Assembly: GCA_023701125.1 (NCBI GenBank)
Contig: JAMPXO010000021.1
Location: forward strand, 1-56,138
From: Vicinamibacteria bacterium
GTDB lineage: Bacteria > Acidobacteriota > Vicinamibacteria > Fen-336
Length of the DNA: 56,138 nucleotides
Reading direction: 5' to 3'
Positions 4,081 to 11,871 of the stretch are shown one piece after another. Below the pieces are notes generated by a model that was not told the DNA's origin, searched no databases, and saw only the letters and a list, made by a program, of their open reading frames with translations. Made by a program: the position numbers and the translations under genes. How positions within the stretch are numbered: the stretch's first letter is position 1; each line of letters opens with the position of its first letter.

Positions 4081-4482
4081 TCACAACACCAGCGCCACGC
4101 CTGCCGTGCGCGCGGCCCTCTGCAGCTCTCGATCGAGCGTGGCCAGCGGCAGTGCGCGGCGGATCGCGGTTTCCAGGTACGTCGCGTCGTAGACCGTGAG
4201 CCCGTGGGCGCGGGCGAGCTGGACTGCGCCACCCGGGGCCCGCAGGGAAGCCTCGACCTCGATCGGCAACCCGCTGAGGATGCCGAGCACGCGGTCGGCG
4301 AGGGCCGGCGCGATCCGCTTGCGCCGCTCGGCCTGGACGAGCACGTTGGCGACCTCGGCCGGGAACAGCGCCGGGACGACGGCGCCCTCGGCGACGACCC
4401 GCTCCAGGACGGCGTCGGTGGCGGGCGTCACTTCGTCGGCGAACCACCAGGCCGCAGCGACGGACGTGTCGATGACCAACAC
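4081..4482 (-). CDS. vapC: VapC-like PIN-domain toxin ribonuclease
   Basis: Protein of 133 residues starting at GTG (MLVIDTSVAAAWWF), one base after the antitoxin stop. PIN-domain acidic residues are in place: D5 (VIDTS), E43 (FPAEVANVL), D99 (YDATYLE) and D117 (ATLDREL). PIN toxins of the VapC family cleave specific RNAs, often tRNA or rRNA, with Mg2+. The upstream partner is a Phd/YefM-type antitoxin, giving a normal antitoxin-toxin order on the minus strand. An in-frame extension far upstream runs through other genes and is rejected. The gene is complete and looks functional; the RNA target is not visible from sequence. Confidence 0.92.
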   Translation of the reverse strand: MLVIDTSVAAAWWFADEVTPATDAVLERVVAEGAVVPALFPAEVANVLVQAERRKRIAPALADRVLGILSGLPIEVEASLRAPGGAVQLARAHGLTVYDATYLETAIRRALPLATLDRELQRAARTAGVALVL

Positions 4483-4483
4483 G

Positions 4484-4720
4484 TCAGGGCCGCCCCGTGT
4501 CGCGCAACTTCCGCACGCTGAGGCCACGCAGCCGCGCGCCGCTCCGGATCTGCCGCAGTTCGTCGACCAGGCGCGACGCGTCCTGCGGCGGGTCGCCGAG
4601 GGGCACGAGGCGCGCGATCGCCTTGCCGTGGCGGGTGATCGTGAACTGCTCGCCGCGTTCCACCCGCTCGAGCAGGGCGGGCAGGTGGGTCTTCGCCTCG
4701 TAGGCGCCGATGGTCGACAT
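4484..4720 (-). CDS. Phd/YefM-family antitoxin
   Basis: Protein of 78 residues. The N-terminal Phd/YefM fold is clear: IGAYEAKTHLPALLERVERG then EQFTITRHGKAIARLVP. The C-terminal half is charged (DELRQIRSGARLRG...), as expected for the disordered toxin-neutralising tail. It is followed after one base by the PIN toxin. The ATG sits 3 bp from a pair of palindromes (4724-4742) that probably bind the antitoxin dimers for autorepression. No Shine-Dalgarno site is visible upstream, so the message may be nearly leaderless. Confidence 0.92.
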   Translation of the reverse strand: MSTIGAYEAKTHLPALLERVERGEQFTITRHGKAIARLVPLGDPPQDASRLVDELRQIRSGARLRGLSVRKLRDTGRP

Positions 4721-4796: not shown

Positions 4797-7700
4797 CTAC
4801 ACCCCCAGTTGGCGGCGCCTCCACAGCAGGTACAGCACCGGGTAGACGAGCAGCTCGAGCAGGAAGCTGGTGGCGAGACCGCCGACCATCGGCGCCGCGA
4901 CCCGCTTCATCAGGTCGGAGCCGGTGCCCGTCGACCACAGGATCGGCATCAGGCCGACCATCGCCGAGATCACCGTCATCGCCTTCGGCCGCACCCGCTT
5001 CACGGCGCCGTGCACGATCGCCTCGATCAGTTCCGCGTAGGTCGTCAGCTTGCCCTGTTGCTTCGCCTCGTCGTAGGAGAGGTCGAGGAACAGCAGCATG
5101 AAGACGCCCGTCTCGGCGTCGAGGCCGAGCAGGGCGATCACGCCGACCCAGGCCGCGATCGAGACGTTGTAGTCGAGGCCCCACATCAGCCACACGGCGC
5201 CGATCGCGGAGAACGGCACCGCCGTCAGCACCATCGCGGTCTTCACCGCCGAGCCGGTGTTGGCGAACAACAGCAGCACGATCAGCACCAGCGTGACCGG
5301 CACCACCAGCTTCAGCCGCTCGCGGACGCGCAGCATGTTCTCGTACTGCCCGCTCCACTCGATCGAGTAGCCGGCCGGCAGCGTCACTTTCGCGGCCACC
5401 GCGGCCTTGGCGCGGTCGACGAAGCCGCCGATGTCACTGTCGGCGGTGTCGACGAACACGTAGCCGGCCAGCAGCGCGTTCTCGTTGCGGATCATCGCGG
5501 GGCCGGTGACCGTGCGCAGGTCCGCGACCTGGCTGAGCGGGATCTGGGCACCGGACGGCGTCATCACCAGCACCCGGCCCAGCTTGTCGAGGTCGTCGCG
5601 CAGCTCGCGCGGGTAGCGGACGTTGACCGGGTAGCGGGCGCGGCCCTCGATCGTGGTGGTGACGTTCTCGCCGCCGACCGCGGACAGGATCACCTGCTGC
5701 ACCTCCGCGACCGACAGTCCGTAGCGAGCCAGCGCCTCGCGGCGCAGCTCGAAGTCGACGAAGTAGCCGCCGGCCGCGCGCTCGGCGTAGGCGCTGCGGG
5801 TGCCGGGCACATGGCGCAGGGCACCCTCGACCTCCTGGCCGAGGCGCTCGATCACCGTCAGGTCGGGGCCGAAGATCTTGACCCCGACCGGCGTGCGCAC
5901 GCCGGTCGACAGCATGTCGATGCGGGCCTTGATCGGCATCGTCCAGGCGTTGGTGACGCCGGGGATCTGCATCGCCGCGTCGAGCTCGGCGATCAGCTCC
6001 TCGCGGGTCAGGTGCTCGGGCACGATCCGCCGCAGCACCAGGTCCTTCAGCCACTCCGGCGCCCACTCCGAGTAGAAGCGCGGCCGGGCCCGCCACTCCG
6101 CCGGCGGCTTCAGCAGCACCGTCGTCTCCATCATCGAGAACGGCGCCGGGTCGGTCGAGGTCTCGGCGCGGCCGGCCTTGCCGTGCACCCGCTCCACCTC
6201 GGGGAACGACTTCAGGATCCGGTCCTGGATCTCGAGCAGCCGCGAGGCCTCGGTCACCGAGATGCCGGGCAGCGTCGTCGGCATGTACAGGATCGAGCCC
6301 TCGTCGAGCGGCGGCATGAACTCGTGGCCGAGCTGCAGGTACACCGGCACCGTGCTCAGGATCAGCAGCAGCGCGGTCGCGAGCGTCGTCTTCGGGTGGC
6401 GCAGCACCGCGCGGCAGGCGGGCTCGTAGATTCCGAACAGCACGCGGCTGACCGGGTGCCGCTCTTCCTTGTAGTAGGTGCCGACCGCCAGCGAGGTGGC
6501 GAGCTTCGCCAGCCAGCGCGGGCGGAACGTGAACGGGTCCATGCGGGTGAAGAACATCCGCAGCGCGGGGTCGAGGGTCAGCGCCAGCACCGCGGCGATC
6601 GCCATGGTCAGGTTCTTGGTCCAGGCCAGCGGCGTGAACAGCCGGCCCTCCTGGTCGACCAGGGTGAAGATCGGCAGGAACGCGACCGCGATCAGCAGCA
6701 GCGAGAAGAACACCGACGGCCCGACCTCGAGCAGCGCGTCGAGCCGCACCTTGTGGAAGTCGCCCTGACGGCCACCGTGCTCCCACAGCTCCAGCTTCTT
6801 GTAGGCGTTCTCGACCTCGACGATCGCGCCGTCGACCAGCACGCCGATCGAGATCGCGATCCCGGCCAGCGACATCAGGTTCGACGAGATCCCCATCCAC
6901 GCCATCGGGATGAAGGCCAGCAGCACCGCGATCGGGATGGTCACGATCGGCACCAGCGCCGACGGCACGTGCCACAGGAACAGCAGGATCACCGCCGAGA
7001 CGATCACGATCTGGGTCACCAGCTCGTGCTTCAGGGTGTCGAGCGCGCGGTCGATCAGGTCGGAGCGGTCGTAGGTGGTGACGATCCGCACCCCGGCCGG
7101 CAACGACGGCTCGACCTCCTTCAGCCGCTGCCGCACGCGCTCGATCACGGCCCGCGCGTTCTCGCCGTGGCGCATCACCACGATGCCGCCGACCGCGTCG
7201 CCCTGGCCGTCGAGGTCGGCCACGCCGCGCCGCAGCTCGGGCCCGATCGCCACCGTGGCCACGTCGCGCAGCAGCACCGGCGTACCGCCCGGGGTCGAGC
7301 GCAGCACGATCTGCTCGAGGTCCTCGCGGGCGCGGATGTAGCCGCGACCACGCACCATGTACTCGCGGCCGGCGAACTCGACGAGACGGCCGCCGACGTC
7401 TTCGTTGCCCTGGCGCACCGCGTCGGAGACCTGCATCACCGACAGGTCGTAGGCCTTCAGCCGGTTGGGGTCGACCGTGACCTGGTACTGCTGGACGAAG
7501 CCGCCGAGCGAGGCGACCTCGGCGACGCCGGGCACCGCCTGCAGCCGGTAGCGCAGGCTCCAGTCCTGGAACGAGCGCAGGTCGGCCAGCGAGTGCTTCC
7601 CGGAGTCGTCGACCAGCGCGTACTGGAACACCCAGCCGACGCCGGTCGCGTCCGGCCCCAGCTCGGTCTTGACCCCGGACGGCAGCAGCGGCTGGATCTT

Positions 7701-8042
7701 GGAAAGGTACTCGAGCACCCGCGAGCGGGCCCAGTACAGGTCGGTCTTGTCCTCGAAGATGACGTAGACGTAGCTGAAGCCGAAGTCGGAGAAGCCGCGG
7801 ATGCTCTTCACCTTCGGCGTGCCGAGCAGGGCCGACACGATCGGGTAGGTGACCTGGTCCTCGATGATGTCGGGGCTGCGGTCCCAGCGCGAGTAGACGA
7901 TGACCTGGGTGTCGGAGAGGTCCGGGATGGCGTCGACCGGAATCGTGCGCAGGGTGTGCACGCCGTAGAGCACGGCGAGCACGGTGAGCAGCAGCACCAG
8001 CACGCGGTGCTCGGCACTCCAGCGGATGATGGCTTTCGTCAT
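4797..8042 (-). CDS. cusA: CusA-type Cu(I)/Ag(I) RND efflux pump
   Basis: Inner-membrane proton-driven pump of 1081 residues, the usual length for heavy-metal RND proteins. It has the N-terminal TM (about 13-30), the porter motifs (PDLSDTQVIVYSRW; FGFSYVYVIFED) and the TM4 motif GVLVDGAIVEVENAYKK. Methionines that match the CusA metal-relay residues M573, M623 and M672 of E. coli are present as M587 (ILYMP), M637 (FSMMETT) and M710 (RIDMLSTG), which supports monovalent copper or silver as substrate. The stretch between the last two is about 24 residues longer than in E. coli. It is the last gene of a cusC-cusB-cusA operon, 7 nt after cusB. A zinc/cobalt (CzcA) role is less likely. Confidence 0.93.
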   Translation of the reverse strand: MTKAIIRWSAEHRVLVLLLTVLAVLYGVHTLRTIPVDAIPDLSDTQVIVYSRWDRSPDIIEDQVTYPIVSALLGTPKVKSIRGFSDFGFSYVYVIFEDKTDLYWARSRVLEYLSKIQPLLPSGVKTELGPDATGVGWVFQYALVDDSGKHSLADLRSFQDWSLRYRLQAVPGVAEVASLGGFVQQYQVTVDPNRLKAYDLSVMQVSDAVRQGNEDVGGRLVEFAGREYMVRGRGYIRAREDLEQIVLRSTPGGTPVLLRDVATVAIGPELRRGVADLDGQGDAVGGIVVMRHGENARAVIERVRQRLKEVEPSLPAGVRIVTTYDRSDLIDRALDTLKHELVTQIVIVSAVILLFLWHVPSALVPIVTIPIAVLLAFIPMAWMGISSNLMSLAGIAISIGVLVDGAIVEVENAYKKLELWEHGGRQGDFHKVRLDALLEVGPSVFFSLLLIAVAFLPIFTLVDQEGRLFTPLAWTKNLTMAIAAVLALTLDPALRMFFTRMDPFTFRPRWLAKLATSLAVGTYYKEERHPVSRVLFGIYEPACRAVLRHPKTTLATALLLILSTVPVYLQLGHEFMPPLDEGSILYMPTTLPGISVTEASRLLEIQDRILKSFPEVERVHGKAGRAETSTDPAPFSMMETTVLLKPPAEWRARPRFYSEWAPEWLKDLVLRRIVPEHLTREELIAELDAAMQIPGVTNAWTMPIKARIDMLSTGVRTPVGVKIFGPDLTVIERLGQEVEGALRHVPGTRSAYAERAAGGYFVDFELRREALARYGLSVAEVQQVILSAVGGENVTTTIEGRARYPVNVRYPRELRDDLDKLGRVLVMTPSGAQIPLSQVADLRTVTGPAMIRNENALLAGYVFVDTADSDIGGFVDRAKAAVAAKVTLPAGYSIEWSGQYENMLRVRERLKLVVPVTLVLIVLLLFANTGSAVKTAMVLTAVPFSAIGAVWLMWGLDYNVSIAAWVGVIALLGLDAETGVFMLLFLDLSYDEAKQQGKLTTYAELIEAIVHGAVKRVRPKAMTVISAMVGLMPILWSTGTGSDLMKRVAAPMVGGLATSFLLELLVYPVLYLLWRRRQLGV

Positions 8043-8049
8043 CGTGGCC

Positions 8050-9339
8050 TCAGTGGTGCGGCGTCGCTGCCGGGCTGCCGGCCGCGTCGGCCTTCATCCC
8101 GCGCAGCGCCGCCTCCAGGCTCGACTCGGAGTCGATCAGGAAGTTGGCCGCGGTCACCACCCGGTCGCCTTCGACCAGGCCCGCGAGCACCTCGTAGCCG
8201 CTCTCGGCGCGAGCGCCGAGCCGCACCTCGCGCGGCTCGTAGCGGCCGTCGCCGCGGTCGAGGAAGACGAGCCGGCGCTCGCCGGCGTCGATCACCGCCG
8301 CGAACGGCACCACCAGCGCGGGGCCGCCGGAGGCCTGCAGCGCCACGTCGACGTACATGTCGGGCTTGAGCAGCCCGCCCGCGTTGTCGACCTCGAGCCG
8401 GACCTTGACCGTGCGCGTCTTCTCCTCGACCGTCGGCGCGACCCAGGTGACGACGCCGCGCAGCGTGCGGTCGGCGAGCGACGGCACGTGGATCAGGCCG
8501 GGCATGCCGACCCGGACCTGGGGCAGGTCGTGCTCGTAGATGTCGGCCAGCACCCACAGCCGCGACAGGTCGGCGATGTCGAACAGCGTGTCCTGCGGCA
8601 TCACCCGCATGCCGTGGTAGACGTTCTTGGCGACCACGTAGCCCGAATTCTGGGCGCGCAGCTCGAGCGTGCGTTGCGGCTTGCCGGAGACCTCCAGCCG
8701 GGCCACCTCGTCGGCCGGGATGTCCCACAGCAGCAGGCGCTGGCGGGCGGCTTCGAGCAACCCTCGGCCGCCGGCGGCGGTGTCAGGGGCACCTTTCGCC
8801 TCCATCTCGCGTTGCGCGCGCAGGGCGAGCAGGAACTCCTGCTGGGTGGCGACCAGCTCGGGGCTGAAGATCGACAGCAGCGGTTCGCCCGCGCTCACGT
8901 ACTTGCCGACGAAGTCGACGTGCAGGTGCTCGACGTAGCCTTCGAAGCGGGTGTGGACGTGGTGCAGGCGGCGTTCGTCGACGGCGACGACGCCGACGGT
9001 GCGCAGCGAGCGCGCGCCTTCGCCGCGGCGGACCGGCTCGCTGGCGACGCCGAGCCGCTGCCGCTTGTCCGCCGACAGCGTCAGCGGCACGCGGCCCGCG
9101 ACGGCCTCGCCGACGGGCGCCGCCCCGCCACTTTCGCCGGGGCCGTCGACCTTGACCAGGTCCATGCCGCAGATCGGGCACGGCTGCTGGTGGTCGGAGG
9201 TGAACTCCGGGTGCATCGGACAGTGCCAGAGCTCCTTCGCCGCGGCGGCAGACGGCGTGTTGCGGGTGCCGGCGAAGTAGCCGCCGGCGACCAGCACGGC
9301 CGCGGCGAGGAGAAACGTGACGATCTTCAGCGGGCGCAT
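8050..9339 (-). CDS. cusB: CusB-type periplasmic adaptor with CPMHP metal-binding domain
   Basis: Membrane fusion protein of 429 residues linking the RND pump to the outer-membrane channel. It has an N-terminal anchor or signal (about 5-23). Residues about 38-63 form the heavy-metal-binding domain (WHCPMHPEFTSDHQQPCPIC then GMDLVKV). Next come the barrel-sandwich/hairpin region (LGVASEPVRRGEGARSLRTV; RFEGYVEHLHVDFVGKYV) and the beta-barrel with LWVLADIYEHDLPQV. The His-rich C-terminal tail ends TPHH. CusB proteins pass Cu(I) to CusA, and the Cys/Met/His N-domain is typical of adaptors in metal exporters. It sits between cusC (6 nt upstream) and cusA (7 nt downstream). Confidence 0.92.
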   Translation of the reverse strand: MRPLKIVTFLLAAAVLVAGGYFAGTRNTPSAAAAKELWHCPMHPEFTSDHQQPCPICGMDLVKVDGPGESGGAAPVGEAVAGRVPLTLSADKRQRLGVASEPVRRGEGARSLRTVGVVAVDERRLHHVHTRFEGYVEHLHVDFVGKYVSAGEPLLSIFSPELVATQQEFLLALRAQREMEAKGAPDTAAGGRGLLEAARQRLLLWDIPADEVARLEVSGKPQRTLELRAQNSGYVVAKNVYHGMRVMPQDTLFDIADLSRLWVLADIYEHDLPQVRVGMPGLIHVPSLADRTLRGVVTWVAPTVEEKTRTVKVRLEVDNAGGLLKPDMYVDVALQASGGPALVVPFAAVIDAGERRLVFLDRGDGRYEPREVRLGARAESGYEVLAGLVEGDRVVTAANFLIDSESSLEAALRGMKADAAGSPAATPHH

Positions 9340-9345
9340 CTTCGG

Positions 9346-10632
9346 TTACTCCTCGACACCGGCCTCGGCGAGGTCCGCCGAGTGCCACAGCACGTGGGCC
9401 AGCAGTTCCAGGTATTCCCAGCGGTCCTCGAAGTCCGTGGTGTGGGCCTCGAGCACGCTGACGAAGGGCACGCGACCGGCGCGGTAGGACGCGAGCGTCG
9501 ACTCCACCGCGAGCCGGTCGGCGATCAGCACGCCTTTCTCGAAGGCGCGCGCTTCGTCGACCGCGGCGACGTACTCCGCCAGCGCGCGCTGGGCAGTGGC
9601 CCGCACCTCGAGCGCGACGGCGCGGGTGCGCGCCCGCGAGGCCACGAGCATCGCCTCCGCCTCGGCCGCCATCTTCTGCTGCTTGCGGCCGCGCCACAGC
9701 GTGGGCCGGAAGCCCAGCTCGACCGCCCACATGTCGGGTAGCGCGCCACGGTTGACATAGCGCCCGCCCAGCTCGAGGTCGGGCTTGCGCTCGCTGCGGG
9801 CGACGCCGTGGCGGGCAAGGGCGACCGCCTCGCCCGCGCGGGCGAGCGAGACCCACGGGCTCGCCTCCACGGCCCAGGCCGCGGCCTGCTCGCTGGAGGG
9901 CAGCAGCCACTCGTGCTTCGCGACGTCGCCGAGGACGGTCGGCGTCTCGACCGCGGCCGTCGCGTCGCGGTCGAGCAGGGCGTTGAGCGCGGCCTGCGCC
10001 ATCCGCTCGTTGCCGCGCTCGTGGGCCCGCATCTGATCGAGCCGCGCCATTTCGGCCTGGGCCCGCAGCACGTCCGGCTGCTCGGCGAGGCCGACCGCGT
10101 AACGCGAGCGGGTCAGCGACTCGAGGTCGGCGACGGTGCGCTGCTGCTCGCCGAGCAGCGCCTGGTTGGCGCGGGCCAGCAGCAGGTCGGTGTAGGCCCT
10201 CCGCACCGCGCGTTCGAGCGCGCGCCGCTCCTGCACGATCGGGTGGGCGAGCGCGAGGGCCTCCGCCTTCGCGACGGCCTCGCGGGCCCGCCGCTTGCCG
10301 GGCCACGGCAGTTCCTGGCTGACCTTCAATCCGATCCCGGCGTCCATGTCCTCGCCGATCCAGCCCGGCTCGCCGCTGCCCTCGGCCTCGAGGGCGACCA
10401 GCGGCTCGGCGAGCGCGCCGGCCATCGGCACGCGATGCTCCGCAGCCAGGCGCTCGGCTTCCGCCATCGCGAGCCGCGGGTGACGGGCGAGGGTCTCGGC
10501 GACCAGCGCCTGCAGCGCGGGGTCGTCCTTCAGCGGGAACGGGTCGACGAAGCCCGGCGCGGGCGCCTGCGCGGCCGCCGACAGCGACGGAAGAAGGGCG
10601 AGCACGGCGATACGAAGCACGGAGCGCGACAT
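9346..10632 (-). CDS. cusC: TolC/CusC-like outer-membrane efflux protein
   Basis: Protein of 428 residues. The ATG at 10632 has GGAGGT seven bases upstream; a longer frame to 10713 lacks a site. The signal peptide is at about 1-22 (ending SAAAQA). Two OEP repeats of long helices and short strands follow: ALVAETLARHPRLAMAEAERLAAEHRVP near 50, and the LKVSQELPWPGKRRAREAVAKAEALA segment near 108, which is typical of CusC/CzcC-like channels. The second repeat is at about 260-420. It provides the exit duct for the CusBA pump. It is the first canonical pump gene of the operon, 118 bp after the small Cys-rich protein. Metal specificity rests on its partners. Confidence 0.9.
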   Translation of the reverse strand: MSRSVLRIAVLALLPSLSAAAQAPAPGFVDPFPLKDDPALQALVAETLARHPRLAMAEAERLAAEHRVPMAGALAEPLVALEAEGSGEPGWIGEDMDAGIGLKVSQELPWPGKRRAREAVAKAEALALAHPIVQERRALERAVRRAYTDLLLARANQALLGEQQRTVADLESLTRSRYAVGLAEQPDVLRAQAEMARLDQMRAHERGNERMAQAALNALLDRDATAAVETPTVLGDVAKHEWLLPSSEQAAAWAVEASPWVSLARAGEAVALARHGVARSERKPDLELGGRYVNRGALPDMWAVELGFRPTLWRGRKQQKMAAEAEAMLVASRARTRAVALEVRATAQRALAEYVAAVDEARAFEKGVLIADRLAVESTLASYRAGRVPFVSVLEAHTTDFEDRWEYLELLAHVLWHSADLAEAGVEE

Positions 10633-10750
10633 CGGAAAGACCTCCGGGGACTCGGGGGAAGCCGGCGCGGGCGCGAAGACTGAACCGCGACGGCGGAACG
10701 GGACGAGTCGCACGCGGCGCCCTGGACAGCGGCGCGGCGCGGAGGCGGCG

Positions 10751-11131
10751 CTAGACGCGGAGGACGGCGGGCTGCGCGGAGGCGGGAGGCGAGACGAACG
10801 GGCGCGGCGAGACCGCGCGCGACGGGGCGACAGCGGCGGGGACGGCGGGCAGCGCCGCAGCGACCAGCACGGCCGGCGAAGCGGGCGACGCCGCGCGAGC
10901 GGTGGCCTCCGCGCTCTCGCGCGAGGGACCGCTCATCTGCTGGCAGCAAGCCTCTTCCTGGGCTTGCCAGCCGGCGCGCGAGGCGCAGCACGAGTGGTCG
11001 GCGGCCATGCCGTCGGCGCTGGCCACCGGCGTTGCGTCGGGACCGCACGGGCAGAGGGCGAACAGCGGCAGGATCAGCACGGCCACCAGGCCGAGCACGA
11101 TCCAGCTGCGGAGCGCCGTATACCCCCTCAT
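10751..11131 (-). CDS. Small Cys/His-containing membrane protein leading the copper operon
   Basis: Protein of 126 residues. The N-terminal hydrophobic helix (about 9-29) is followed by a metal-binding-looking stretch with CPCG near 32, HSCC near 51 and EACCQQM near 64, then a low-complexity Ala/Pro/Val tail. It has the layout of the small Cys/His proteins (for example DUF2946-type) found in copper loci, but I cannot show homology by eye. The ATG at 11131 lies inside a dyad resembling a copper-repressor operator and has no ribosome site, so translation may be leaderless or may start at a downstream GTG. Position and direction suggest co-transcription with cusCBA and a role in copper handling at the membrane (inference). 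Confidence 0.62.
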   Translation of the reverse strand: MRGYTALRSWIVLGLVAVLILPLFALCPCGPDATPVASADGMAADHSCCASRAGWQAQEEACCQQMSGPSRESAEATARAASPASPAVLVAAALPAVPAAVAPSRAVSPRPFVSPPASAQPAVLRV

Positions 11132-11170
11132 GGTATGAGTACGATGCGGCATCGGCTGGCCGGCTGTCAA
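11118..11170 (-). promoter_or_regulatory. Copper-operon promoter with two dyads (candidate CsoR-like operator)
   Basis: On the minus strand a consensus -35 (TTGACA) covers 11170-11165. Downstream is a perfect 13-bp palindrome (CGATGC-G-GCATCG, 11142-11154). Next is ATACC-N7-GGTAT (11120-11136) with five Cs after TA, similar to CsoR-class copper-repressor operators. The start codon of the Cys-rich gene lies in the second dyad. No good -10 appears at 17 bp, so activation with a long spacer (MerR/CueR style) is also possible. No copper regulator gene is present nearby. Confidence 0.45.
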
Positions 11171-11186
11171 GGGCGAACGCACCTTT

Positions 11187-11846
11187 TCACTCGGGCGGGA
11201 CGATCAGCCGCGGCCCGGTGGGCTCCTCAGCCGCCGGCACGCCGCCGGACTCGGCCAGCATGCGGCCGGCCAGGCGGGTGGCGGTGTCGAGGAACGCGGT
11301 CGGCCCGGCGGCCTCGCGCAGCGTCGCTTCCACGCTCTTGCACAGCGCGCCCAGCACGCGGAGCAGCGCGGCATCGCGCGGACGCACGACCGAGCCGTCC
11401 TCTTCCTTCGCCTCGTACAACCCCGACAGCTCGCGGACGGCGGCCCGGGTCAGTGCGTCTTCGGCCGGGTGCTCGTAGACGATGCCCTTCTCGCGGGTGG
11501 CCGTGGTCTTCGCCAGCACCTCGAGCGCCTGGTACAGCAGGGCGTCGTCGAGGCCGCGGACACGGGCACGGATCGCGGGCAGCGAGGCGATCGTCATCAG
11601 CACCAGCGGCGCCTCTTCGTCTTCGTCGAGGCCCTCGAGGAAAGGGCCGACCCGACGGGCGTCGCGCCGCATCTCGGTCTCGCGGCCGTCCCAGGATCCG
11701 GCGTGGGCTCCCTGCAGGTACGTGCAGTCGTCGGGGCAGGCGACCTCGACCCGGCGCTTGGAGCCGCAGCAGGCGGCGCAGATCGCCTCGCCCTTGGCCG
11801 GGCAGTGGCGCTTGCCCTTGCGTCGCGAGCACAGTGGACAACTCAT
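11187..11846 (-). CDS. Cys-rich putative zinc-binding protein
   Basis: Protein of 219 residues from ATG 11846. The first 45 residues hold a dense cysteine cluster: MSCPLCSRRKGKRHCP, then ICAACCGSKRR and ACPDDCTYL. This is suited to bind one or two zinc ions in a treble-clef or zinc-ribbon fold. The rest is soluble and helical (ALLYQALEVLAKTTATREKG; LVLMTIASLPAIRARVRG) with no catalytic motif. I recall the 'RKGKR.CPA...ICA.CCG.KR' pattern only from uncharacterised proteins. It is divergent from the kinase gene at 11964, and its end lies 17 bp from the copper-operon -35 box. It may act in nucleic-acid or protein binding; this is not established. Confidence 0.8.
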   Translation of the reverse strand: MSCPLCSRRKGKRHCPAKGEAICAACCGSKRRVEVACPDDCTYLQGAHAGSWDGRETEMRRDARRVGPFLEGLDEDEEAPLVLMTIASLPAIRARVRGLDDALLYQALEVLAKTTATREKGIVYEHPAEDALTRAAVRELSGLYEAKEEDGSVVRPRDAALLRVLGALCKSVEATLREAAGPTAFLDTATRLAGRMLAESGGVPAAEEPTGPRLIVPPE

Positions 11847-11871
11847 GTCGGCCCGCAAGTATGCCCTTTCG

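Follow-up and report, generated by a model that had tools for sequence, protein, structure and literature searches.

CutF of Rhodobacter capsulatus is one of the described systems closest to the locus analysed here; according to the relevant passages of PMC9973294 and PMC8456105, an mRNA structure hides the Shine-Dalgarno (SD) sequence of the next gene. In the CutF-like set treated in passages of PMC9973294, a gene for an outer membrane efflux protein (OEP) was the commonest neighbour, and CzcI of Cupriavidus metallidurans was grouped with these proteins although it is without the Pro-Pro (PP) pair. CruR (DUF2946) of Bordetella pertussis, as presented in parts of PMC9426467, heads an uptake operon, with a sign of regulation opposite to CutF-type induction. 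The DNA analysed here (the window) is a stretch of 56,138 nucleotides from a Vicinamibacteria bacterium (contig JAMPXO010000021.1, C133 in our numbering, of a 5.41-Mb Acidobacteria genome, with the metagenome-assembled genomes ACD1 and ACD2 as the nearest named relatives). It contains a cusCBA copper-efflux operon headed by a short open reading frame (ORF) for a Cys-rich protein, referred to below as the leader. cusCBA is probably under copper control in two layers, a CsoR operator and a CutF-like leader.

The preliminary description of the window had placed the leader ATG inside ATACC-N7-GGTAT and had likened this dyad to CsoR-class copper operators. The dyad was located there (Table 1), and the exact pattern, which we take to be the operator form of Bacillus subtilis copZA, occurred at two places in 5.41 Mb, the cus promoter and the copZ-copA-csoR promoter, with the reversed control pattern at 0 places. 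The dyad in the cus promoter was identical in both of the two congeners. The operator codons AGG, GGG and TAT, which account for 1.3% of Arg, 12% of Gly and 2% of Tyr codons in cusCBA, were unchanged in all three genomes of the genus; since rare codons are kept inside the operator, the first leader residues, M-R-G-Y, are dictated by the DNA signal. Judged from sequence, there is hardly any doubt that the first dyad is an operator for CsoR, and a CsoR layer of control over cusCBA is well supported in silico.

The genome search for CsoR homologues that had been proposed at the outset gave one CsoR-family gene (PF02583; 100.8 bits against a cut-off of 22.8), whose best PDB matches were CsoR 4m1p and 4adz, with the Cu(I) ligand positions Y-C and H-x3-C aligned. 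It belongs to copZ-copA-csoR on contig C233, unlinked to cusCBA. The earlier statement that no regulator gene is linked was thus correct for the adjoining genes, and the regulator is encoded elsewhere. The search for the same dyads before other copper genes, proposed together with it, gave two in the copZ-copA-csoR promoter, ATACCCCTGGGGGGTAC and ATACCGCCAGGGGGTAT, one inside the -35/-10 spacer and the other just 3' of the -10. The same dyad pair stands before copZ in congener G002, where the copZ dyad and csoR are on different contigs. CsoR was surveyed in 40 genomes, of which 13 were CsoR-bearing, adjacency being defined as an exact dyad within 3 kb of csoR, and such a dyad was present in 6 of the 13. 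Since exact dyads were also present in genomes without a CsoR match, the pattern has no diagnostic value by itself. A promoter dyad was rejected as a common trait of these cus operons: before the leaders of other genera, none was found that matches TACC-N7-GGTA with one mismatch or fewer.

Two further observations concern csoR in relatives. Among the sites observed outside the genus, the sequence closest to the window operator was the dyad ATACCATAAGGGGGTAT at 1501-1517 of locus L037 (genome G034), 142 nt before the start of a CsoR-family match. On contig C304 of genome G016 (L131/L133, L096), two CsoR-family genes (18999, 22630) and a leader-OEP pair (28788) were found, so that csoR is linked there to a leader-OEP pair, unlike in the window.

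The leader start at 11131 is taken as correct because an upstream GTG at 11182 precedes the -35 and the congeners have no common earlier start. The likely -10 (counterparts in the two congeners, CATTCT and CATCCT) lies 9 nt 5' of the leader ATG, and the mRNA is therefore predicted to be nearly leaderless, starting a few nt from the ATG. The second palindrome and the -35 TTGACA of the preliminary description were both present. Its suggestion of a second regulator or site at this palindrome did not hold: the palindrome was missing in both congeners and overlaps the likely -10. The window, at 73% GC, contains 62 perfect 6-1-6 palindromes, and perfect inverted repeats of 6 bases with spacers of 0-10 occur at 0.66 per 60 bp; the palindrome as a second operator was rejected as unconserved and frequent by chance.

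The Cys-rich protein of 126 aa at the head of cusCBA was confirmed, as were the families of the operon by profile searches. Its Cys motifs follow one hydrophobic stretch (residues 10-26, with an AlphaFold2 helix at 3-25; a candidate signal peptide) and are CPCG at 27-30, HSCC at 46-49 and ACC at 61-63. Towards the C-terminus, SPP at 114-116 is followed by the tail VLRV-stop (SPPASAQPAVLRV). No match was obtained against Pfam (0 families at E ≤ 1, including no DUF2946) or NCBIfam, and AlphaFold2, with only 3 sequences, gave no fold (mean predicted local distance difference test score, pLDDT, 50; residues 81-126 below 50). In size (<150 aa), PP, neighbour and strand the leader agrees with the CutF-like rules in the passages of PMC9973294. 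Between genomes G000 and G001, leader codons 11-30 (11101-11042, minus strand) carried 1 synonymous change in 18.8 sites, and the whole leader gene 36 in 104; a further constraint at the nucleotide level on these codons is possible.

Leaders were compared in a first set of 30 cusC-like (OEP) loci of the class and in a second, held-out set, whose 26 loci represent other classes in the phylum. Of the 30 OEP loci, 26 had a small Cys-rich ORF just upstream that begins with a hydrophobic stretch; the 26 further loci yielded 20 rule-based candidates, 19 of which were kept after one in the wrong frame was dropped. The leader sequences were very divergent outside the tail. In the first set, the last residue (-1) was I/V/L, residue -2 was R/L and residue -3 was L/F, each in 25 of 26 leaders, and the relative entropy at -1 to -3 was 3.0, 2.7 and 2.9 bits, respectively, whereas a null of random columns reached 1.08 at its 99.9th percentile. 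The held-out leaders ended in LFRI, TFRI, TLRI, ALLV and similar, and (L/F)(R/L)(I/V/L)-stop was found in 43 of 45 leaders of both sets. CutF, which ends in ...PPPRL in a passage of PMC8456105, fits R-(I/L/V)-stop too. Similar tails were also seen in other phyla before cusC-like genes, at L078 and L082 (Omnitrophota) and L075 (Spartobacteria), where the Cys-rich ORFs end in FRL, LRL and YLI before the stop.

Several Leu and Arg codons are used in the tail, which therefore points to selection on the peptide. The tail Leu codons include CTG in 1 of 16 cases (439 of 1018 in OEP genes), and the coding side of the leader stop still adds to the pairing described below (z -3.2). The tail as a mere by-product of an anti-SD sequence in the last codons was rejected as a full explanation, as the Leu and Arg codons vary. 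The distance from the last paired Cys to the C-terminus was 53-70 residues in 25 of 26 first-set leaders, with a median of 66 residues and quartiles of 62 and 79 over the 45 leaders. The ribosome tunnel and the translocon together hold a chain of about this length (about 66 residues). With the ribosome at the stop, the Cys motifs would accordingly be just exposed outside. Alternatively, the tail may mark the leader for degradation from its C-terminus and not serve in arrest. Non-polar C-termini are known to signal degradation and were argued to act so for CruR (passages of PMC9426467), and CutF is degraded after export (passages of PMC9973294); the pairing at the stop is left unexplained by degradation, and both could coexist. 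We regard degradation in place of arrest as doubtful.

The pairing of the leader stop with the next gene was profiled by sliding a 24-nt window along the transcript against the SD region of that gene. Over 26 loci, mean pairing was strongest at +0 to +9 past the leader stop, with a z of -1.07, and 0 of 1000 circular shifts were as low in any bin; at the 19 held-out loci the peak fell in the same bin (-1.09). When partners were swapped (n=23), the total energy was -389 for own partners and -305 (standard deviation 12) for swapped ones, and the effect of the own partner was confined to the surroundings of the stop (z -7.4 at centre 0 and -5.3 at +20; others from -2.1 to +1.5). The held-out swap test at 11 loci gave z -4.3. 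Long helices were seen at L094, L095 and L093, among others. At the window's own locus, pairing in the 240-nt profile was strongest at the candidate anti-SD arm, in the 24-nt stretch centred at +6. Accessibility of the SD compared with shuffles was mixed over the 26 loci, 7 of them lying at ≤5% and several at ≥80%, and start and SD are uncertain at some distant loci (L103, L117, L119). Across loci, an arm that hides the SD and that a ribosome finishing the leader could reach appears supported; in the window's own junction it is weak.

This pairing could also belong to an ordinary translationally coupled first gene, in which it merely couples cusC and copper is not sensed. Such coupling needs an arm at the leader stop as well and accounts for the pairing data without a sensor. 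It leaves unexplained the conserved Cys motifs, with their narrow spacing to the stop, and the conserved tail; the junctions from leader to next gene are also long for it (57-259 nt), and 44 ordinary gene pairs, taken with a crude ORF picker, were without such pairing, the sign at the stop being opposite (+0.56) and the swap test giving z -0.53. A smaller control with 11 such pairs agreed with this result. We consider plain coupling unlikely.

In the preliminary description, the small protein had been suggested as a possible new carrier that supplies CusB with copper. As a carrier or buffer in the periplasm or anchored in the membrane, it would pass Cu(I) to CusB or CusC, with CsoR control unchanged. 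The CPCG, HSCC and ACC motifs are conserved, the gene holds the first position in a copper-efflux operon, and CusB has a heavy-metal binding domain (HMBD) of its own, which makes a CusF-like supply step plausible. The proposal is weakened by the tail fixed to the stop, by the spacing from Cys to stop, by the coevolution of the stop region with the next SD and by the extreme divergence elsewhere; tail, coevolution and divergence are left unexplained by a carrier, and the structure prediction above offers it no fold. The carrier therefore has a low probability in our judgement, and the evidence points to a CutF-like copper-sensing leader as the better fit for the small protein.

The operator, csoR in trans, the conserved leader architecture and the coevolved pairing across loci, all observed in silico, can be joined in one scheme of two layers, the second of which is modelled on CutF as published in passages of PMC9973294 and PMC8456105; stalling, copper binding, export and the direction of the response are what we infer from this likeness. 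The cytosolic Cu(I) repressor CsoR would sit on ATACC-N7-GGTAT, covering the transcription start and the start codon, and copper would release it. The transcript would start with the leader, which would be exported during translation, so that its Cys motifs would have entered the periplasm by the time the ribosome reaches the ORF end. When periplasmic copper is lacking, leader termination would be fast, the helix would mask the cusC SD and little pump would be made. Copper on the nascent Cys motifs would delay the ribosome at (L/F)(R/L)(I/V/L)-stop; the delayed ribosome would cover the anti-SD arm, and cusC, and with cusC the pump, would be translated. Copper in the cytosol would open the way to transcription, and copper in the periplasm to translation.

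The inverse, CruR-like logic would have stalling without copper, and relief together with Rho termination with copper. The general anatomy is the same, the junctions are long and GC-rich, and CruR also comes first in copper operons (passages of PMC9426467). Expression under this logic falls in copper, fitting uptake and not an efflux pump, the leader is without a RAPP motif near its C-terminus as well as without a DUF2946 match, and the pairing with the SD suits translational unmasking more than Rho. The inverse logic is judged very improbable.

Several results weigh against control in two layers as set out above. The frequency of the exact dyad, taken by itself, is close to chance, about 0.6 copies being expected in 5.4 Mb by our own arithmetic, and 7 of the 13 CsoR genomes had no exact dyad near csoR. 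The dyad was absent from every examined cus promoter outside the genus, so that the earlier expectation of both dyads before orthologous operons was borne out for the first dyad in the two congeners, for the second palindrome in neither, and for no other genus. No leader was found at 4 of the 30 OEP loci (L110, L113, L115, L116), and of the 26 further loci 5 had no candidate, 1 had no SD and 1 had a candidate in the wrong frame. In the held-out swap test, the control window at -60 deviated too (z -3.7). In the window itself, the pairing of CGCCTCCGCG with CCCCGGAGGTC was modest (-13.8 kcal/mol), the lowest-energy fold paired the SD with -36 to -39, inside the leader, the cusC SD was hidden no more than in shuffles (22% as hidden), and the leader-cusC junction as a whole was not unusually stable (z 0.0).

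The coordinates of the features are collected in Table 1. The leader stop is 118 nt from cusC on the same strand, and a scan of the window with Rfam gave a tRNA as the sole match. Upstream, at 11187-11858 (minus strand), a Cys-rich zinc-ribbon-like protein (MSCPLCSRRKGKRHCP...) is encoded, at a position unchanged in the two congeners; it ends about 55 nt 5' of the leader ATG and had no Pfam or NCBIfam match over the cut-off. Just 3' of cusA, at 4081-4720 (minus strand), lies a type II toxin-antitoxin pair, in which a Phd/YefM antitoxin (4720-4484, PF02604) is followed by a reading frame for a PIN-like toxin, assigned as PIN by eye only.

Table 1. Features of the cus locus in the window
Feature	Coordinates	Strand	Basis or remark
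Cys-rich leader ORF, 126 aa, CutF-like	10751..11131	-	ATG 11131, stop ending 10751
cusC, outer membrane efflux protein	9346..10632	-	PF02321
cusB, adaptor with HMBD	8050..9339	-	PF16576 + PF19335
cusA, RND (resistance-nodulation-division) pump	4797..8042	-	TIGR00914, 1088 bits
Predicted CsoR operator ATACCATGAGGGGGTAT over leader start codon	11120..11136	-	Copy number, congener identity, csoR adjacency, rare codons
-35 element TTGACA	11165..11170	-	Sequence; present in both congeners
Likely -10 CATCGT, 18-nt spacer	11141..11146	-	Inferred, sequence comparison only
Second palindrome CGATGC-C-GCATCG (minus strand)	11142..11154	-	Judged chance, over -10/spacer
Candidate anti-SD arm CGCCTCCGCG, directly 3' of leader stop	10738..10747	-	Duplex prediction
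cusC SD GGAGG	10641..10645	-	Sequence; predicted unpaired probability 0.01

We tentatively put forward, at somewhat less than an even chance, that these leaders form a phylum-wide, copper-sensing class for RND efflux operons which acts at its own stop, where the short tail would retain the terminating ribosome and the coevolved anti-SD helix of the exporter gene would thereby be opened up; to this CsoR adds cytosolic sensing in this genus. If this is true, the pump is made only when copper is signalled in cytosol and periplasm alike, and the class has largely been missed by the published PP-based rule. PP was present in the last 15 residues of 17 of 45 leaders and absent from 28, and the published CutF-like filter would therefore drop these 28; the stop-anchored tail could find leaders which the PP rule misses. 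Acidobacteria ORFs that stand in front of copper pumps as 'unknown Cys-rich protein' would become a testable regulatory class, with the concrete prediction that the SD of the exporter is freed by a ribosome at the leader stop, and one genus would have brought a periplasmic exporter under CsoR by an operator on the start codon.

In a title-level search of the literature, no title fitted CsoR over cusCBA or CutF-like leaders in Acidobacteria. 'Acidobacteriota', the phylum of the present host, has 0 occurrences in the main texts of PMC9973294 and PMC8456105, and phyla other than three are called 'minor' for CutF-like proteins in the passages of PMC9973294; the supplementary lists of the CutF papers may include some of the present leaders. 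A stop-anchored tail as a family mark, an arm at the leader stop coevolved over many loci and a CsoR operator on the leader start were not found in the CutF passages considered here. CzcI, likened here by description, shares the position of a small protein before an RND metal-efflux operon. CruR shares a leader with Cys motifs, a C-terminal arrest motif and a copper operon (passages of PMC9426467), and the present leader differs from it in the exporter that comes next and in the opposite expected sign. With the CsoR regulons that include copZ-copA, the genome shares the CsoR protein and the tandem dyads in the copZA promoter, and it is unlike them in that a second, unlinked operon, cusCBA, is joined through an operator on a start codon. 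Unlike the CutF-like set, the leaders described here have a shared stop-anchored (L/F)(R/L)(I/V/L) tail and, in this locus, a predicted CsoR operator on the leader start codon.
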